Shown here: positions 5,708-54,987 of the stretch, in pieces | Position numbering within the stretch: position 1 is the stretch's first letter | Layout of the letters: the number at the start of each line of letters is the position of its first letter | Virus record (IMG/VR): IMGVR_UViG_3300042541_000169 | Span: 1-62,238 of that record | Length of the DNA: 62,238 nucleotides | Origin: a virus | Reading direction: 5' to 3' (one strand) | The notes under the pieces: model-generated | Seen by the model: the letters and a program-made list of their open reading frames with translations, nothing else | What the model was told of the DNA's origin: nothing | The model's database searches: none | Translations under genes and position numbers: made by a program

Positions 5708-6793
5708 ATGTTAATTCCAACTAAGTTTAGTGGTTACCAAGCGGGCATACGCCTCTATCCGGGCGGCGGTGGTGGAGGCCCTGCTGCCCCACAAACTTCT
5801 CAAGAGGCAATGAGTCGTGGTATGGCAACGGTTGATATGCAGGGGAGGCCGCTATACGGGGGCAATACAAATACCTCCAACACCTCCACTTCCAACACCC
5901 CGCAACTTACTGTAGACCAAGGGCCTACTCCGTTTGTAGGGCCAAGAACGCCTTCGCAGGTAGGCAGAACAATGCCCGGCGAAACTCCCGCCCTGCAACC
6001 AATCTATAAGTCGCAATACGCTAATTATACAGACCCTAGCGCTTATACTAATGTAAGCAGTTACGGAACTGCTGGGCGTCCTTCTGACATGGTTACCCAA
6101 GCATATGCAAATATAGGACGCACTGGTATTGGTGGAGGCGCTAACCAAATTGACCAAGCTGGGTATAACTATTGGAATCAACAACTTGCTTCTGGAGCTA
6201 TGTCCCCCCAACAGTTTGGTAGTAGTTTTGCGCAAGGAGCAAGGCAAGATAATCCAAATTCTCCTACTATCCAAGGATTTATAAATAATCCTTCAGCGCT
6301 ATATAGTAACGCTGGTGGTGCGCAGCTTCCGCAAAGTATGTACAACGGTGTGTATGGTGGTATGGGCGGTATGGGCGGAAATTTTATGCCCCAAATGCAG
6401 ACACCGTTTAATCCTTACACTAATAGCTATCAATCGCCGTTTAGTTATGGTGGCGGTGCGCAGCTTCCAAGAAGTATGTATGGCGGTGTAGGTGGTATGG
6501 GTGGTATGGGCGGTATGGGCGGTATGGGCGGTATGGGCGGTATGGGCGGTATGGGTGGACAACAATTTATGCAACAACCCCAACAGTACATGCAGCAACA
6601 ACCCCAACAATATATGCAACAACAAGTTCCGCAATATATGCAACAACCTTCTGCGCCCGCTGCCCCTATAGCCCAACGAACATCAGGACCAAGCCAGCCT
6701 ATTTTGTCTCGCGCTGCGATGGCCAGAGGAACACCAAACGTAATGCGCCGTGCTGATGGTGGTATTACTTCATTGCTGGATGATAGCGAATGA
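5708..6793 (+). CDS. Gly/Met/Gln-rich virion protein (361 aa)
   Basis: The product has a short Gly run near residue 20, a Thr/Asn-rich stretch, seven GMG triplets in tandem (about 263-283) and a Gln-rich block of QQYMQQ units (about 290-320). It ends with a GGI tag, RRADGGITSLLDD, like its neighbours. The gene overlaps the next one by 4 bases. The composition suggests an extended or disordered virion component. No known fold is recognised. Confidence 0.45.
   Translation: MLIPTKFSGYQAGIRLYPGGGGGGPAAPQTSQEAMSRGMATVDMQGRPLYGGNTNTSNTSTSNTPQLTVDQGPTPFVGPRTPSQVGRTMPGETPALQPIYKSQYANYTDPSAYTNVSSYGTAGRPSDMVTQAYANIGRTGIGGGANQIDQAGYNYWNQQLASGAMSPQQFGSSFAQGARQDNPNSPTIQGFINNPSALYSNAGGAQLPQSMYNGVYGGMGGMGGNFMPQMQTPFNPYTNSYQSPFSYGGGAQLPRSMYGGVGGMGGMGGMGGMGGMGGMGGMGGQQFMQQPQQYMQQQPQQYMQQQVPQYMQQPSAPAAPIAQRTSGPSQPILSRAAMARGTPNVMRRADGGITSLLDDSE
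6494..6556 (+). repeat. Seven 9-bp tandem repeats (GGTATGGGY)
   Basis: Seven consecutive, almost identical 9-base units encode Gly-Met-Gly seven times inside the 5708-6793 gene. Codon use is nearly uniform, which points to recent expansion by slippage. Unit number may vary between strains. Confidence 0.9.
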
Positions 6794-45999: not shown

Positions 46000-46908
46000 A
46001 TGGCTATTTCACGCGCACAACTACTTAAAGAACTTCTTCCCGGCCTGAACGCCCTGTTTGGTCTGGAGTACGCCAAGTATGGTGAGGAACATAAAGAGAT
46101 TTATGAGACCGAAACCTCTGAGCGTTCGTTCGAAGAAGAGACCAAGCTGTCTGGCTTCTCCGCTGCGCCAGTCAAAAACGAGGGTTCTGCCATCGCTTAT
46201 GACAATGCACAGGAAGCATGGACTGCTCGATACAACCACGAAACCATTGCTCTGGGTTTCTCGCTGACCGAAGAGGCCATCGAGGATAACCTGTATGACA
46301 GCCTGTCGGCTCGTTATACCAAAGCTCTGGCTCGTGCTATGGCTTACACCAAGCAAGTTAAAGCTGCCGCCGTTCTAAACAACGGTTTCAGCAACGCTTA
46401 CGCTGGTGGTGACGGTGTTGCGCTGTTCTCAGCGTCGCACCCGCTAGTGTCTGGCGGCACCAACAGCAACATCCCATCGACCCCTGCTGACTTGAATGAG
46501 ACTTCTCTTGAGAATGCTGTTATTCAAATCTCGCTGTGGACGGATGAGCGTGGCCTGCTGATCGCTGCCAAGCCTAACAAGCTGGTTGTCCCACCTGCAC
46601 TGCAATTTACGGCAACTCGTTTGCTGGAAACTGAACTGCGCGTGGCTACTGCTGACAACGACATCAACGCACTGAAGAACAATGGTTCTATCCCCGGTGG
46701 ATATACCATTAATCACTTCCTGACCGATACGAACGCATGGTTCCTGACCACTGATGTTCCAAACGGCATGAAGCATTTCGTGCGTACCCCGCTGTCGCAG
46801 TCGATGGATGGTGACTTTGATACCGGCAACGTCCGTTACAAGTCCCGTGAGCGTTACAGCTTCGGCTGGTCTGACCCTCTCGGCATGTTCGGTTCGATTG
46901 GTGCGTAA
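46000..46908 (+). CDS. Major capsid protein (302 aa)
   Basis: The 302-residue protein has the features of HK97-fold capsid proteins of the Mu gpT-like/podovirus group: N-terminal helix (SRAQLLKELLPGLNALFGLE), a long E-loop region, and FSASHPLVSGG and LETELRVATADNDINALKN in the A domain. It follows the scaffold and ends at a terminator, which would let it be made in high amount. Codon choice is more regular than in neighbouring genes, consistent with strong expression. Confidence 0.8.
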   Translation: MAISRAQLLKELLPGLNALFGLEYAKYGEEHKEIYETETSERSFEEETKLSGFSAAPVKNEGSAIAYDNAQEAWTARYNHETIALGFSLTEEAIEDNLYDSLSARYTKALARAMAYTKQVKAAAVLNNGFSNAYAGGDGVALFSASHPLVSGGTNSNIPSTPADLNETSLENAVIQISLWTDERGLLIAAKPNKLVVPPALQFTATRLLETELRVATADNDINALKNNGSIPGGYTINHFLTDTNAWFLTTDVPNGMKHFVRTPLSQSMDGDFDTGNVRYKSRERYSFGWSDPLGMFGSIGA

Positions 46909-46918
46909 TTGATGTAAA

Positions 46919-46950
46919 AAAGGGGGCCTAAAAACCCCCTTTCTTGTTTT
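46919..46950 (+). terminator. Intrinsic terminator after the capsid gene
   Basis: AAAGGGGG/CCCCCTTT, an 8-bp stem with an 8-base loop, then CTTGTTTTATTTT. It limits transcription into the downstream genes and isolates a high-level capsid transcript. Confidence 0.9.
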
Positions 46951-46974
46951 ATTTTATGGTATAAAGCTATAAAT

Positions 46975-47050
46975 ACCGGGGTTATCCGGTGTATCTGACA
47001 GTCCCGGCTGACGACATGCAGACAGATACGCCCTCACTTGCATGTAAGGA
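46975..47050 (+). promoter_or_regulatory. Predicted RNA pseudoknot at the next ribosome-binding site
   Basis: A hairpin ACCGG/CCGGT (46975-46990) is followed by helix 1, GTATCTG (46991-46997) with CAGATAC (47023-47029). Helix 2 is ACATGCA (47014-47020) with TGCATGT (47039-47045). The two 7-bp helices interleave, so they form a true H-type pseudoknot. Helix 2 ends one base before the AAGGA ribosome-binding site of the 47060 gene, so it could control translation. Confidence 0.65.
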
Positions 47051-47059
47051 ACCTATATC

Positions 47060-47632
47060 ATGGCAAATACCACATTCTCCGGCCCAGTCATATCTAATAA
47101 TGGCTTTATTACCGGAACAGCTTCTTCCCCTATCGTTGAGACTACCGCTACTAATGTGTCTGAATCGTATGTTACGACTTCGGCTGCTACTGGCGATACA
47201 CGCCTGTCTTATCAGCGTTTAGCTTTTACATCGACTGGCTCTGGGGAAACTTACCGCGCTCTGACTCAAGTCACAGGCGCTGGCGCAGCTACTGGCGGTA
47301 CTGTTAACGGCGCTCACATTAGCTTGAGCATCAACGGTTCTGGCACTATTTCTGGCGCTGGTAACGCACTCCGCGCTACTCTGGGTGGTACGTCCACAAA
47401 CCCCGGCGGCACGATTGCAGCTATTCAAGCTGACTCTAACTTTGCTTCTGGTGGAACTTGGACAAATGCTTCGTTCATCCGTTTTACAAACAGCGGCACT
47501 GGCACGGTGGCTAACTTGTTTAACATCCCCGCAGCCTTGTTTGTAACAAGTACTGCCACTATTGCTAAGACTTTGAGAGTCGTGGCATCAGACGGTACGC
47601 CTTACTTCATCATGTGTTCTAGCGCAGCTTAA
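47060..47632 (+). CDS. Ser/Thr/Gly-rich structural protein (190 aa)
   Basis: The product is beta-forming with almost no charge in long stretches (GAGAATGGTVNGAHISLSIN). It may decorate the head or form a short fibre. Its translation is probably controlled by the pseudoknot just upstream, and its transcript lies beyond the capsid terminator, which fits a protein needed in a set ratio to capsid. Confidence 0.5.
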   Translation: MANTTFSGPVISNNGFITGTASSPIVETTATNVSESYVTTSAATGDTRLSYQRLAFTSTGSGETYRALTQVTGAGAATGGTVNGAHISLSINGSGTISGAGNALRATLGGTSTNPGGTIAAIQADSNFASGGTWTNASFIRFTNSGTGTVANLFNIPAALFVTSTATIAKTLRVVASDGTPYFIMCSSAA

Positions 47633-49168: not shown

Positions 49169-49354
49169 ATGGATAATCACGATATCAAAGTAATGACTGA
49201 CGGCGCTGCTGTAGTTGTAGGCATAAGCGGGTTTATGTCATGGTTTCCGCCCATTGTTGCTTTAGTTGGTGGCTTACTTACTATAGTTTGGTTAAGCCTC
49301 CGCATTTGGGAAACCGACACCGTACAAAAATTGGTACGTAAAAATGCCAAGTAA
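49169..49354 (+). CDS. Holin-like protein, T7 superfamily II type (61 aa)
   Basis: A short polar N-terminus (MDNHDIKVMTDG) leads into two hydrophobic stretches (AVVVGISGFMSWFPPIVALV, GLLTIVWLSLRIW) and a charged end. This is the pattern of T7-type class II holins, which are about 60-70 residues. The lysozyme and a second holin candidate lie far off at 0.7-1.7 kb. One of the two could be an antiholin or pinholin. Confidence 0.65.
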   Translation: MDNHDIKVMTDGAAVVVGISGFMSWFPPIVALVGGLLTIVWLSLRIWETDTVQKLVRKNAK

Positions 49355-49733
49355 GAGTAAAGCGCAACATAATTTCATGGCTGCGGTGGCGCATAACCCA
49401 TCGTTTGCTAAAAAAGTAGGTGTGCCTACATCTGTAGGCAAAGACTTTAACCAAGCGGACAAGGGCCGCAAATTTTCAAAAGGTGGTGATACTATGGCTT
49501 CCAAAATGAACCCCGGCTTCATGGCGATGATGAAGAAAAAAGGCACTAGCAAAATGGCTGGTGGTGGCGTGGCCGCATCGAAAATGGGTGCTGTTAAGAC
49601 TGCTGCCCCTAGCAAAGACGGTATTGCTGAAAAAGGCAAAACCAAAGGTAAGCAAATTAAGATGGCTGGTTCTGGTGTCCCCGGTGGCATTGGTTCTAAA
49701 GTCATGAAAAAAGGCGGAATGGCCAAGTGCTAA
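49344..49733 (+). CDS. Lys/Gly/Met-rich protein with KGKTKG tag (129 aa)
   Basis: The N-terminal 45 residues (MPSKSKAQHNFMAAVAHNPS, VGVPTSVGKDF) are a conserved phage domain. The remainder is Lys, Gly and Met rich, with the tag DGIAEKGKTKGKQ near the end. The same tag occurs in the 49748 and, in altered form, 52129 genes. A DNA-associated or head-internal protein is plausible. Confidence 0.55.
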   Translation: MPSKSKAQHNFMAAVAHNPSFAKKVGVPTSVGKDFNQADKGRKFSKGGDTMASKMNPGFMAMMKKKGTSKMAGGGVAASKMGAVKTAAPSKDGIAEKGKTKGKQIKMAGSGVPGGIGSKVMKKGGMAKC

Positions 49734-49747
49734 TCTAAGGAGTTGTC

Positions 49748-50053
49748 ATGAACGAAGATGAGAAAAAAGCGGCTAAATACCGCAAAGAAGCGCGTGAGGC
49801 AGGAGTAACAGCCCCCGTACCTCAGAGTGCTGTGCAAGATGCAGCAGATGAAAAGGCACGTCGCGCTATGGAAAAAGCATATAACCGTTCTTTAACCAGC
49901 CCTGAAATGGTAAATCCCCCTGCTGCCCCGGGAATGCTGTCGCGCAAACATGGTGGCTCAGTAGGTTCTGCCTCTAAACGCGCTGATGGTATTGCTACAA
50001 AAGGTAAAACCCGTGGCACTATGGTCACTATGAAAAATGGCGGGATGTGCTGA
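49748..50053 (+). CDS. Basic protein with KGKTRG tag (101 aa)
   Basis: The product starts with a charged helix (EDEKKAAKYRKEAREAG), has a Pro-rich middle, and ends ADGIATKGKTRGTMVTMKNG, matching the tag of the gene upstream. Likely a member of the same small structural set. AAGGAG precedes the ATG. Confidence 0.5.
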   Translation: MNEDEKKAAKYRKEAREAGVTAPVPQSAVQDAADEKARRAMEKAYNRSLTSPEMVNPPAAPGMLSRKHGGSVGSASKRADGIATKGKTRGTMVTMKNGGMC

Positions 50054-50054
50054 G

Positions 50055-50330
50055 ATGATGGCCTCTCGCGGTATGGGTGACATTAACCCTTCCAAGATGC
50101 CCGGTGGGGAGAAGAAGGCCCGCCGGGACGACACCGACTTTACGCAGTATAAAGAAGGCGGTAAAGTTAACGCTGCTGGTAACTACACTAAGCCTAGTCT
50201 TCGTAAGAAGATTGTGTCTCAGGTAAAATCCGCAGCAACCCACGGCACTGGCGCAGGTCAGTGGTCAGCCCGTAAAGCACAACTCGTTGCTAAGAAGTAT
50301 AAAGCGGCGGGTGGGGGTTACCGAGATTGA
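50055..50330 (+). CDS. Small basic protein, DUF5872-like (91 aa)
   Basis: The ATG at 50055 (MMASRGMGDINPSKMPGG) is used; an earlier in-frame ATG lies within the upstream gene. The C-terminal block LRKKIVSQVKSAATHGTGAG QWSARKAQLVAKKYKAAGGG is of a type I believe is catalogued as DUF5872. The role is unknown. It overlaps the next gene by 4 bases. Confidence 0.55.
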   Translation: MMASRGMGDINPSKMPGGEKKARRDDTDFTQYKEGGKVNAAGNYTKPSLRKKIVSQVKSAATHGTGAGQWSARKAQLVAKKYKAAGGGYRD

Positions 50331-50560
50331 AAGCCCCACAGCAAAGCCTGAAGTCATGGGGTGACCAGAAATGGCGGACAAAGAGCGGCAAGCCGTCGTC
50401 AAAGACAGGCGAACGATACCTGCCAGAAGCGGCTATCAAGTCACTCACCCCGTCAGAGTATGCCGCCACAACGAAGGCAAAGCGGGCAGGGAAAGCAGCA
50501 GGAAAGCAGTTTGTTAAGCAGCCCAAGGGCATAGCAAAGAAAACAGCGGGGTTTAGATAA
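50327..50560 (+). CDS. Small basic protein, DUF5872-like (77 aa)
   Basis: The motif WGDQKWRTKSGKPSSKTGER and YLPEAAIKSLTPSEYAATT is shared by phage proteins of the same small family as the previous gene. It is Lys/Gly-rich at the end. It is coupled to both neighbours. A nucleic-acid-binding role is plausible. Confidence 0.55.
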   Translation: MKAPQQSLKSWGDQKWRTKSGKPSSKTGERYLPEAAIKSLTPSEYAATTKAKRAGKAAGKQFVKQPKGIAKKTAGFR

Positions 50561-51492
50561 TGGCAATAACGACCGGAACCACCGTCTTTAATTTGGACAT
50601 GAACGACCTCATTGAGGAAGCGTTCGAGCGTTGCGGTCAAGAACTTCGCACCGGCTATAACTTTCGCACTGCGCGTAGGTCGCTAAACATCTTGACGATT
50701 GAGTGGGCCAACCGTGGGCTGAACTTCTGGACTGTAGAACAGAACCAGATTCCTATGGTGACAGGCCAAGCTATGTACCCCGTGCCTGTTAATACGATTG
50801 ATATTCTGGACTCTGTGATTCGTCAGAACAACAGTACGACCAACCAGATTGACATTAATATCAGCCGTATTGCAGAGCCGACCTACATGAGCTTGCCTAA
50901 TAAGCTGGCGCAGGGGCGACCAATTCAGGTTTGGTACAACCGTCAGTCGGGGCAAGAGAATACGACCAATGTTACCTTGATTGGTGGAATTAGCGCATCC
51001 GATGTCACTATCACGGTGTCTTCAGTTGCTGGCTTAACCACGTCTGGGTTTATTAAGATTGGTACGGAAACGATTAGTTACCCCAATGTTGACCCTGTAA
51101 ATAACCAATTACTTAACTGCGCTCGTGGACAAAACGGCACAACCGCCGCTGCGCACTCTACTTTAGCTGCAATCACAGTACAGAATTTACCTTGTATTAA
51201 CGTCTGGCCAACGCCTAACGCTCCGGGTGACCAGTATATGTTTGTGTACTACCGGCTGCGCCGTATTCAGGACGCGGGTACGGGTGTGACAGTCCAAGAT
51301 ATTCCGTTCCGGTTTATCCCCTGTATGGTGGCGGGGCTGGCGTACCAACTGAGCATGAAGCTACCGGATGTTGACCCAATACGTATTTCAGCGTTGAAAA
51401 TGGATTACGAGCAGCAGTGGGATTCAGCCGCTGCGGAAGACCGTGATACGTCACCATTGCGGTTTGTACCGAGAAATATGTTCTATGCCTAA
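50560..51492 (+). CDS. P22 gp4-like tail accessory / head-completion protein (310 aa)
   Basis: The start contains MNDLIEEAFERCGQELRTGY and ARRSLNILTIEWANRGLNFW, the helical portal-binding part of gp4-type proteins. The C-terminal part (LAYQLSMKLPDVDPIRISAL) matches too. Between residues 135 and 210 is a beta-rich insert (TLIGGISASDVTITVSSVAG) absent in shorter relatives. It would plug the portal and carry the gp10-like nozzle. The zinc-ribbon protein gene overlaps its end. Confidence 0.7.
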   Translation: MAITTGTTVFNLDMNDLIEEAFERCGQELRTGYNFRTARRSLNILTIEWANRGLNFWTVEQNQIPMVTGQAMYPVPVNTIDILDSVIRQNNSTTNQIDINISRIAEPTYMSLPNKLAQGRPIQVWYNRQSGQENTTNVTLIGGISASDVTITVSSVAGLTTSGFIKIGTETISYPNVDPVNNQLLNCARGQNGTTAAAHSTLAAITVQNLPCINVWPTPNAPGDQYMFVYYRLRRIQDAGTGVTVQDIPFRFIPCMVAGLAYQLSMKLPDVDPIRISALKMDYEQQWDSAAAEDRDTSPLRFVPRNMFYA

Positions 51493-51913
51493 TAGATTTG
51501 CATCAGGTAAGAACTCAATTGCAGAGTGTGACCGCTGTGGGCAGCGGTATATGCTCAAAGAGTTACGAACTCAGACGGTTAAAACGCGTCCGTTTAAGGT
51601 TAAAGTTTGCCACGAGTGTTGGGACCCTGATCATCCGCAGTTGCAGTTAGGTATGTATCCGGTGAACGACCCGCAAGCAGTGCGAGAGCCGCGCCCAGAT
51701 GTAAGCTACCAAGTATCCGGCAATAGCGGCTTGCAGATTTTGCTAACCAATAGTACCGCTCCAGATGGGTTTGGTTACCCAGAAGCGGGTAGTCGAATCT
51801 TCCAGTGGGGGTATGCCCCCGTTGGTGGGGCAAGTGGGTTTGATACCCTTTTAACCCCGAATAATTTGGTATTAGCGGTAGAACTTGGTACAGTTACAGT
51901 TACCGTCACATAA
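51485..51913 (+). CDS. Zinc-ribbon-like conserved phage protein (142 aa)
   Basis: The ATG at 51485 overlaps the gp4-like end by 8 bases. Two CxxC pairs (CDRCGQRYMLKEL and VCHECWDPDHP) 23 residues apart predict a zinc ribbon at the N-terminus. The rest is a beta-rich Thr/Val domain. It is widespread next to podovirus neck genes. The function is unknown, perhaps head-tail assembly. Confidence 0.6.
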   Translation: MPNRFASGKNSIAECDRCGQRYMLKELRTQTVKTRPFKVKVCHECWDPDHPQLQLGMYPVNDPQAVREPRPDVSYQVSGNSGLQILLTNSTAPDGFGYPEAGSRIFQWGYAPVGGASGFDTLLTPNNLVLAVELGTVTVTVT

Positions 51914-51923
51914 GGAGCTTAAA

Positions 51924-52127
51924 ATGGACAAAGCAGATTTGAAACAAGACAAGAAGATGATGGCTGGAGCCGTGCATAAGCATGAGAAAAAGCTGCATCC
52001 GGGTCAACCTATGACCAAGCTGGCCAAAGGCGGCAAGACTAATCTTCAAATGAAACAGCTAGGTCGCGGTCTGGCCAAAGTGGCTAACCAGAAGAAGTCT
52101 TCATTCACCTATAAAAAAGGCGGTTGA
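51924..52127 (+). CDS. Small Lys-rich protein (67 aa)
   Basis: The ATG at 51924 follows AAGGAGC. The composition is about a third Lys, with MAGAVHKHEKKLHPGQPMTK near the start. It resembles other small basic phage structural proteins and may contact packaged DNA. Confidence 0.55.
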   Translation: MDKADLKQDKKMMAGAVHKHEKKLHPGQPMTKLAKGGKTNLQMKQLGRGLAKVANQKKSSFTYKKGG

Positions 52128-52128
52128 T

Positions 52129-52395
52129 ATGGCCAAATTTAGCCAAAAGCAAGGCGGCAAAGAAGTCGGCAGTGCCGAAGTCTACGCTAAACCACATACT
52201 ATGGACGGTAACGCTGGTGTGGATATTAAGAACAGCGGCTACCAAGGCGGCAATCGTTTCACTGCTAATGATGTGAACATGTCCGTTGGTAACATTAGCC
52301 GTGATCCATACAAAGAGCCTAAGACAACAGGTATCAAAACTCGTGGCAATGGCTGCGCTACTAAAGGCACGATTGCTCGTGGGCCAATGGCGTAA
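52129..52395 (+). CDS. Small structural protein with TKGTIARG end (88 aa)
   Basis: The N-terminal segment (FSQKQGGKEVGSAEVYAKPH) and the end TGIKTRGNGCATKGTIARGP are typical of a conserved set of small phage proteins. The tail resembles the KGKTKG tags of 49344 and 49748. One base separates it from the upstream gene. Confidence 0.55.
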   Translation: MAKFSQKQGGKEVGSAEVYAKPHTMDGNAGVDIKNSGYQGGNRFTANDVNMSVGNISRDPYKEPKTTGIKTRGNGCATKGTIARGPMA

Positions 52396-54273: not shown

Positions 54274-54987
54274 ATGTCTTTTGGAATATTTGCATTTTCT
54301 GAAGCTGCTTTTGCTGCGTTACCTGCGCCCGCAAATGTGGAGGTTGCCCTTACGGGGGTAACAGCCAGCGGGGCCGTAGGATCGGTTACAGAAATAAGTA
54401 CAGTTGCTCTTAGTGGTGTTGAGGCAACAGGGACGGTTGGTAGTGTTACAGTCGGGGAGATTTCATTAGCACTGACAGGTGTTGAGGCTACCGGCGCAGT
54501 AGGTACGGTAATTTATGAGCAAGTTATAACATTAGCCATTACTGGCGTTGAAGCAACGGGTGCGGTAGGTACGGTAATAAATGAACAGGCTATTGGGGTA
54601 AATGGGGCGCAAGGCTTTGGTGAAGTTGGATCAATTGGTATACTTGGCATTGAAGCCGGGCTGCAAGGCGTTGTAGCTACAGGCGAAGTAGGCACTGTAG
54701 CTCTTGCTGACCGTGAGATTGCGCTGACCGGGGTTGAGGCTTCGGGCGCAGTAGGCAATGTTACTGAAACAAACAGCCCAACTGAAGATGGCGTTGTAGC
54801 GACAGGTGCGGTAGGATCAGTAGGGTCTAGCCGCACGGTGGCCATAACAGGGGTACAGGCTAGAGGACAAGTTGGCACAGTAGATAAATTCTATTGGTCT
54901 GTCATAGATGATAGTCAAACACCAAATTGGGGCCTAATAGATGCGGAACAAACTCCAGATTGGCAAGATGTTGAAATGACTGTGTAA
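54274..54987 (+). CDS. Tail protein of tandem LTGVEATGAVGTV repeats (237 aa)
   Basis: At least eight irregular units of the form LTGVEA-TGAVGTV, about 17-26 residues apart, make up most of the protein; the last 35 residues are different (YWSVIDDSQTPNWGLIDAEQ). The same unit ends the 3812-4252 protein. The regular hydrophobic-Gly pattern suggests a beta-solenoid or stacked-strand fibre. It precedes the fibre genes. Confidence 0.55.
   Translation: MSFGIFAFSEAAFAALPAPANVEVALTGVTASGAVGSVTEISTVALSGVEATGTVGSVTVGEISLALTGVEATGAVGTVIYEQVITLAITGVEATGAVGTVINEQAIGVNGAQGFGEVGSIGILGIEAGLQGVVATGEVGTVALADREIALTGVEASGAVGNVTETNSPTEDGVVATGAVGSVGSSRTVAITGVQARGQVGTVDKFYWSVIDDSQTPNWGLIDAEQTPDWQDVEMTV

Follow-up and report, generated by a model that had tools for sequence, protein, structure and literature searches.

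Small leaders whose pseudoknots sequester the Shine-Dalgarno (SD) sequence are known from the SAM-II and preQ1-II classes, in which the 3' strand touches or overlaps the SD, and autogenous translational repression is known from the operators of ribosomal proteins and of RNA-phage coat proteins. Structured leaders in marine phages and their hosts include the glnA and Downstream-peptide glutamine riboswitches (PMC2864571; phage examples in PMC9004378). The gene 32 operator of phages T4 and RB69, which is bound by the single-strand-binding protein, consists of a pseudoknot of about 28 nt and, 3' of it, a stretch of more than 40 nt with less structure, which carries UUAAA/UAAA repeats and contains the ribosome-binding site (PMC535899).

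The leader analysed here, which lies 3' of a phage capsid gene, was likened to the T4 gene 32 leader in a first-pass annotation. That likeness holds in that both are leaders of phage mRNAs whose pseudoknot precedes the ribosome-binding site and sets protein output in T4 and probably also here, and it does not extend to the type of operator: two pseudoknots are present here, the SD region is paired, the UUAAA repeats are absent from the only 9 nt between SD and start codon, the downstream gene is a presumed virion gene and covariation runs across many phages. Where the T4 product is a single-strand-binding protein, the product here has a virion-spike-like fold in its pelagiphage version, and the protein of the window matched no family. 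With SAM-II and preQ1-II the leader shares a small pseudoknot whose 3' strand lies at the SD, whereas its topology (a pseudoknot at the 5' end, PK-A, plus a second one at the SD, PK-B), its core and its gene context are different, and it has no Rfam match. The resemblance to glutamine riboswitches is superficial (GACGGAA..TAGG in the leader of pelagiphage HTVC027P), since no model matched and both the fold and the gene context are others. With ribosomal-protein and RNA-phage coat-protein operators the proposed likeness is that a structural protein would set its own translation through RNA near the start codon, although the leader is far more elaborate than a coat-protein operator hairpin.

The window, that is, the whole stretch of DNA analysed, comprises 62,238 nt of the IMG/VR virus record IMGVR_UViG_3300042541_000169 (positions 1 to 62,238), and the parts of the leader and its two flanking genes are on its plus strand. 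The major capsid protein gene of HTVC023P type (46000..46908; phrog_371, 1.7e-22; PF25209, 4.9e-15), whose product shares 63% identity with its counterparts in pelagiphages HTVC023P and HTVC027P, is followed by a terminator-like hairpin recognised by sequence inspection (AAAGGGGG/CCCCCTTT with a T-rich tract; 46919..46950), and similar hairpins stand 5' of many homologous leaders. A -10-like hexamer, TATAAA preceded by TGG (46960..46965), places the predicted transcription start at about 46972-46974. The next gene (47060..47632) encodes 190 aa beginning MANTTFSGPV, probably a capsid-attached spike or decoration protein.

Between the two genes, helix 1 (GTATCTG, 46991-46997/CAGATAC, 47023-47029) and helix 2 (ACATGCA, 47014-47020/TGCATGT, 47039-47045) are perfect and interleaved over 46991-47045, and AAGGA (47046-47050) starts directly 3' of helix 2, exactly as the first-pass annotation had read the sequence. 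Exactly one interleaved pair of perfect 7-bp helices within 60 nt occurs in the whole window; random first-order sequence of the same composition gave a mean of 2.2 such pairs, with at least one in 73% of 100 replicates. Single-sequence minimum free energy folding, a method that cannot draw pseudoknots, was uninformative, the leader stretch folding no better than shuffles (z-score -0.28). The single sequence therefore provides no evidence, and the case is carried by comparative data.

Comparison of homologous leaders indicates that the pseudoknot is real and larger than first described, with four helices, P1, P2, PK-A and PK-B, in one fold. What the first-pass annotation took for an H-type pseudoknot does touch the ribosome-binding site, but it is a double pseudoknot. 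Helix 1 is part of the P1 stem of up to 10 bp with one G.U pair, whose arms are GGTGTATCTG (46988..46997) and CAGATACGCC (47023..47032). Inside P1, a single unpaired A (46998) precedes P2, a 3-bp hairpin (CAG-TCCCGG-CTG, 46999..47010; stem 46999-47001/47008-47010) that had been overlooked, as had the pairing of its loop (47003-47007) with the strand CCGGG at the predicted transcript start (46976..46980), which forms PK-A. The joiner between P2 and P1, ACGACATGCAGA (47011..47022), begins with AC and ends with AGA, and it contains the PK-B 5' strand ACATGC (47014..47019), which pairs with a strand that abuts or overlaps the SD. Of helix 2, 6 bp are conserved (ACATGC/GCATGT); the seventh pair was discarded, a C standing opposite an invariant A in about 40% of leaders. 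Its T (47039) shows covariation with A47046 instead, the two bases pairing in a small hairpin around the SD (CTT[GCATGT]AAG, 47037..47048). The loop of this mini-hairpin (47040-47045) is the PK-B 3' strand, and the first three bases of the SD (AAGGA, 47046..47050) lie in its pairs.

About 340 leaders entered the comparison, drawn from IMG/VR, from two pelagiphages in culture and from a small number of metagenome bins. An exact 33-nt pattern taken from the leader core had at least 120 matches in IMG/VR, and nearly all of the matches listed precede an ORF starting MA-x-T-T-F-x-G-P-V or similar. The exact 28-mer core was absent from 84,980 bacterial and archaeal genomes, and blastn of the leader against 50,697 phage records returned no related leader. 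By tblastn, the downstream protein led to the cultured SAR11 phages (pelagiphages) HTVC027P and HTVC023P, whose leaders have the same fold in a different sequence and are located 3' of two small ORFs in HTVC027P and directly 3' of the capsid gene in HTVC023P. The family of the pelagiphage protein, used as query without the RNA as a criterion, gave 80 contigs, and the fold was present in all of those with enough upstream sequence. Altogether 337 of 339 leaders could be parsed, always with one unpaired base between P1 and P2, a P2 loop of 6 nt (7 in five leaders) and a joiner of 11-14 nt, the AC and AGA of which were required by the parser. P1 has at least 7 bp in 307 of the 337, and a few leaders, such as L283, have a poor P1.

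Forced-mismatch scans, in which one arm was made to differ while its partner strand was left free to avoid selection for pairing, revealed strong covariation in all four helices. With the third base of the P1 arm changed, 120 contigs and more than 20 different stems were recovered, mostly paired at all positions or at all except the outermost, and most of the rows scored as unpaired ("xxx") were single-base length shifts of stems like GGCGTTTC/GAGCGCC. All nine contigs of the P2 scan were compensated, CGG/CCG replacing CAG/CTG, and the middle P2 pair is seen as A-U, U-A, G-C and C-G. Each of the 12 contigs with a variant P2 loop had a matching change upstream (CTAGG/CCTAG, CTGGG/CCCAG, AAAAG/CTTTT), which revealed PK-A as a second pseudoknot; its pair types are CCGGG/CCCGG, CTAGG/CCTAG, CTGGG/CCCAG, CCGAG/CTCGG, CTATA/TATAG, CTGTA/TACAG and AAAAG/CTTTT. 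For PK-B, no variant was found in the scan at the third base, and the scan at the first base yielded 62 contigs, 56 fully complementary (TCATGC/GCATGA in 33, CTGCAC/GTGCAG in 18, CTATGC/GCATAG in 3, TCATAC/GTATGA and CTGCAT/ATGCAG in 1 each), 4 with a G.U pair and 2 uncompensated. Although contigs are not independent events, the numerous pair types per position indicate many separate changes. In an alignment of 43 diverse leaders with 17 pairs, controlled by 500 shuffles and by slid pairings, 94.6% of cells can pair, as against 64.9% in the shuffles and 28-39% in the slid controls, and 229 cells are doubly changed, as against 62.5 in the shuffles; double changes occur at 14 of the 17 pairs, including all nine of P1. 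Two measures that count pairs or pair types were less decisive (reached by 143 and 20 of the 500 shuffles), as expected when almost every pair varies. The unpaired A and the AC and AGA of the joiner are invariant in the same alignment. The first-pass annotation had staked its pseudoknot on covariation in both helices, and this was found: all pairs of helix 1 vary with compensation, and helix 2 is compensated in the 56 of 62 variants described above.

Two other explanations of the conservation were rejected. A GTG ORF (46989-47222) spans the leader, but P1 and linker lengths shift by single bases and the sequence is free where pairing is kept, which argues against coding. A palindromic DNA site was likewise discarded, as GCATGT is no palindrome and covaries with a strand 20 nt off. 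With Rfam 15 (4227 families) at gathering thresholds, no match was obtained in the window, in the HTVC027P and HTVC023P loci or in 8 divergent loci, and a permissive scan of 46900-47100 gave chance-level matches only, far under threshold. An earlier description of the leader was not found in the open-licence literature; a 2017 survey of 224 RNA candidates lies outside that scope. Judged by these sequence comparisons, the leader looks like an apparently undescribed family of structured RNA, whose comparative support is unusually strong.

Of 198 unique leaders, 170 have a PK-B strand that abuts or overlaps the SD, and this contact takes very different forms (GCATGT-AAGGA; CTAGG inside CTAGGAG; GTGCAG in GTGCAGGAG; GGAG itself), so that the involvement of the SD is conserved rather than the sequence. 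In the main set, nearly all leaders close the SD mini-hairpin with T-A or C-G and a few with T-G, whereas none has C-A, and the loop hexamer is present in 260 of 262 leaders, without this having been a search requirement. In the GCC clade (25 unique leaders, joiner ending GCCAAGA), PK-B pairings of 4 bp or more are essentially absent, so that the conserved pairing at the SD, which PK-B provides in the 170 leaders, is lacking there. The SD hairpin was considered as a general substitute for PK-B and rejected, its occurrence in the GCC clade (25, against 22.7 expected from shuffles) being not above expectation.

The position of the pseudoknot is constant, with the capsid gene before it and a probably structural gene after it. 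In all 269 loci with at least 1.3 kb upstream, a homologue of the window capsid gene of HTVC023P type lies 5' of the leader on the same strand, mostly within 130 nt. The downstream proteins share about 17 N-terminal residues (MA-x-TTF-x-GPV-x-S-x-NGF), which are conserved as protein since synonymous codons vary freely, and the rest of these proteins falls into at least 14 unlike clusters. This modular family (window 47060-47632; L001-L344) looks as if varied displayed domains had been fitted to one capsid anchor. The downstream protein of the window matched neither Pfam nor PHROG, and its own structure model was too poor for use (pLDDT 51.5). For the pelagiphage protein, the AlphaFold2 model (pLDDT 77.5, the first 20 residues not confident) had its best PDB match in the capsid spike of Pseudomonas phage Pa223 (E 8.5e-4, TM 0.43, 11% identity) and matched many phage fibre proteins in a viral structure library. 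From its position and modelled fold, the product is a probable spike or decoration protein attached to the capsid.

In bacterial genome bins, nine relatives of the downstream protein have the motif, and all nine follow the HTVC023P-type capsid lineage; eight gave a covariance-model match, and in the ninth, L351, the model misses the leader. Upstream of 2296 in L351 stands a possible variant leader, in which P2 is long and the 3' arm of P1 contains the SD (TCCTG/CAGGA). Relatives without the N-terminal motif gave no covariance-model match, and in Rhizobium phages a homologous protein stands 12 nt after an unrelated head gene, with neither leader nor motif. Leader, motif and capsid lineage hence occur together, and relatives that lack the capsid lineage and the motif also lack the leader. 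This co-occurrence, as read from the sequences, fits an N-terminus that would dock on the HTVC023P-type capsid and an expression unit kept with that capsid; inheritance of the entire block from a common ancestor would explain it as well.

Several further features were observed in these regions. In L394 (5652-5821) the leader is followed by a very short ORF (MDILRSVSSFASTF stop) and then by the GPV-motif gene at 5821. Near 10341 in L180 the leader core runs straight into coding sequence (AACTTGGCAAGCACC), the SD part being apparently deleted, as in a natural broken copy or a recombination product. In the structural region of the window (49344-52395), several small Lys/Gly-rich ORFs (49344-49733, 49748-50053 and 52129-52395), apparently paralogues, share a motif like DGIA-x-KGKT-x-G ending in GG..C. 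Elsewhere in the window, an ORF of 237 aa (54274-54987) is built of a repeated unit like ALTGVEATGAVGTV.

These comparisons demonstrate how the leader folds, that the fold is conserved, where it stands and that it contacts the SD; as to function, we propose with moderate confidence, from sequence evidence, that it is a cis-acting element controlling translation of the following gene, probably that of the capsid-attached spike or decoration protein. PK-A ties the strand at or near the 5' end of the transcript into the P2 loop, and together with P1 and P2 it would form a stiff framework on which the joiner is displayed. The ribosome-binding site would be kept closed by PK-B and the small SD hairpin, and ribosome entry would compete with this closure, by which the output of the downstream protein relative to the capsid protein would be set. 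With lower confidence, a phage protein may bind the invariant core (A, AC and AGA) and shift the balance; the binder would most likely be the capsid protein or the conserved N-terminus of the product itself, so that output would follow capsid assembly. The conserved structure could also be a constitutive setting rather than regulation.

A more specific version, which we put forward only tentatively, is that the leader acts as an RNA switch coupled to capsid assembly, common to a very large phage lineage and recognised either by the HTVC023P-type capsid protein or by the GPV N-terminal peptide, with a hairpin at the 5' end of CCGGG leaders as its second state. Such recognition would explain why leader, peptide and capsid lineage are kept together while the rest of the protein is exchanged. 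A CCGG immediately 5' of P1 offers the PK-A strand of CCGGG leaders a local pairing partner (window 46976-46989), in 61 of 61 distinct leaders of this class, against 25 expected from shuffles. This local hairpin would exclude PK-A and the outer P1 pairs, which makes a two-state leader possible in the CCGGG class.

Alternatively, the leader may be a constitutive shield of the 5' end, in which the first transcribed bases form the PK-A strand, decay enzymes are kept off and nothing is sensed, giving a long-lived mRNA for an abundant virion protein. The promoter data are consistent with this: of 251 non-redundant leaders, 212 have a -10 hexamer 6-12 nt 5' of PK-A, with a spacing of exactly 9 nt in 141 and sometimes of 7, and this fixed distance predicts a transcript start 2-3 nt before the helix. 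The TCATGC class, however, directly follows the capsid terminator mostly without a -10 hexamer, and the promoter is hence common rather than general; yet PK-A is kept in this class. As the tracking of the SD by PK-B is also left unexplained, we regard a shield as rather unlikely.

A small-molecule riboswitch, whose A, AC and AGA core would bind a metabolite or ion that changes in infection and thereby open or close the SD, has in its favour the compact double pseudoknot, the small invariant core and the SD pseudoknot, all reminiscent of known small translational riboswitches, as well as the glutamine riboswitches in phages of streamlined marine hosts (PMC9004378). We nevertheless consider it unlikely, given that no Rfam riboswitch matched and that, in the loci read, the leader always precedes one presumed virion gene after one capsid lineage and never a metabolic gene. 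The gene context points to no particular ligand. That the leader acts in transcription, on RNA polymerase or the neighbouring capsid terminator (by antitermination or processing), and not on the ribosome, could be suspected from the terminator-like hairpin that often directly precedes the leader and from the classes without a visible promoter between them, but the terminator lies upstream of the leader, and the 3' helix of the leader keeps within a narrow range of distances from SD and start codon, so that we find this improbable. A DNA-level site (recombination, packaging or protein binding) for swapping the C-terminal parts of the downstream gene, to which the retention of leader and N-terminal codons beside a remainder exchanged among at least 14 clusters might point as homology for swapping, is very improbable and may at most be a side effect, since compensation in four interlocking helices keeps RNA pairing while the DNA sequence changes freely, and divergent phages have the fold in common and not the sequence.

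The HTVC023P phage type has been called widespread, and vSAG 37-F6 was assigned to it (PMC9599517). Hundreds of related phages from the environment carry the leader fold at the corresponding position, and in the phage lineage that includes the HTVC023P type it has a fixed place next to the capsid gene. The question of how the proportion of capsid to capsid-attached proteins is set in tailed phages thereby becomes testable in a cultured pair, HTVC027P on HTCC1062, and if a virion protein is the ligand, the leader would amount to an RNA with which DNA phages sense the assembly of their particles.
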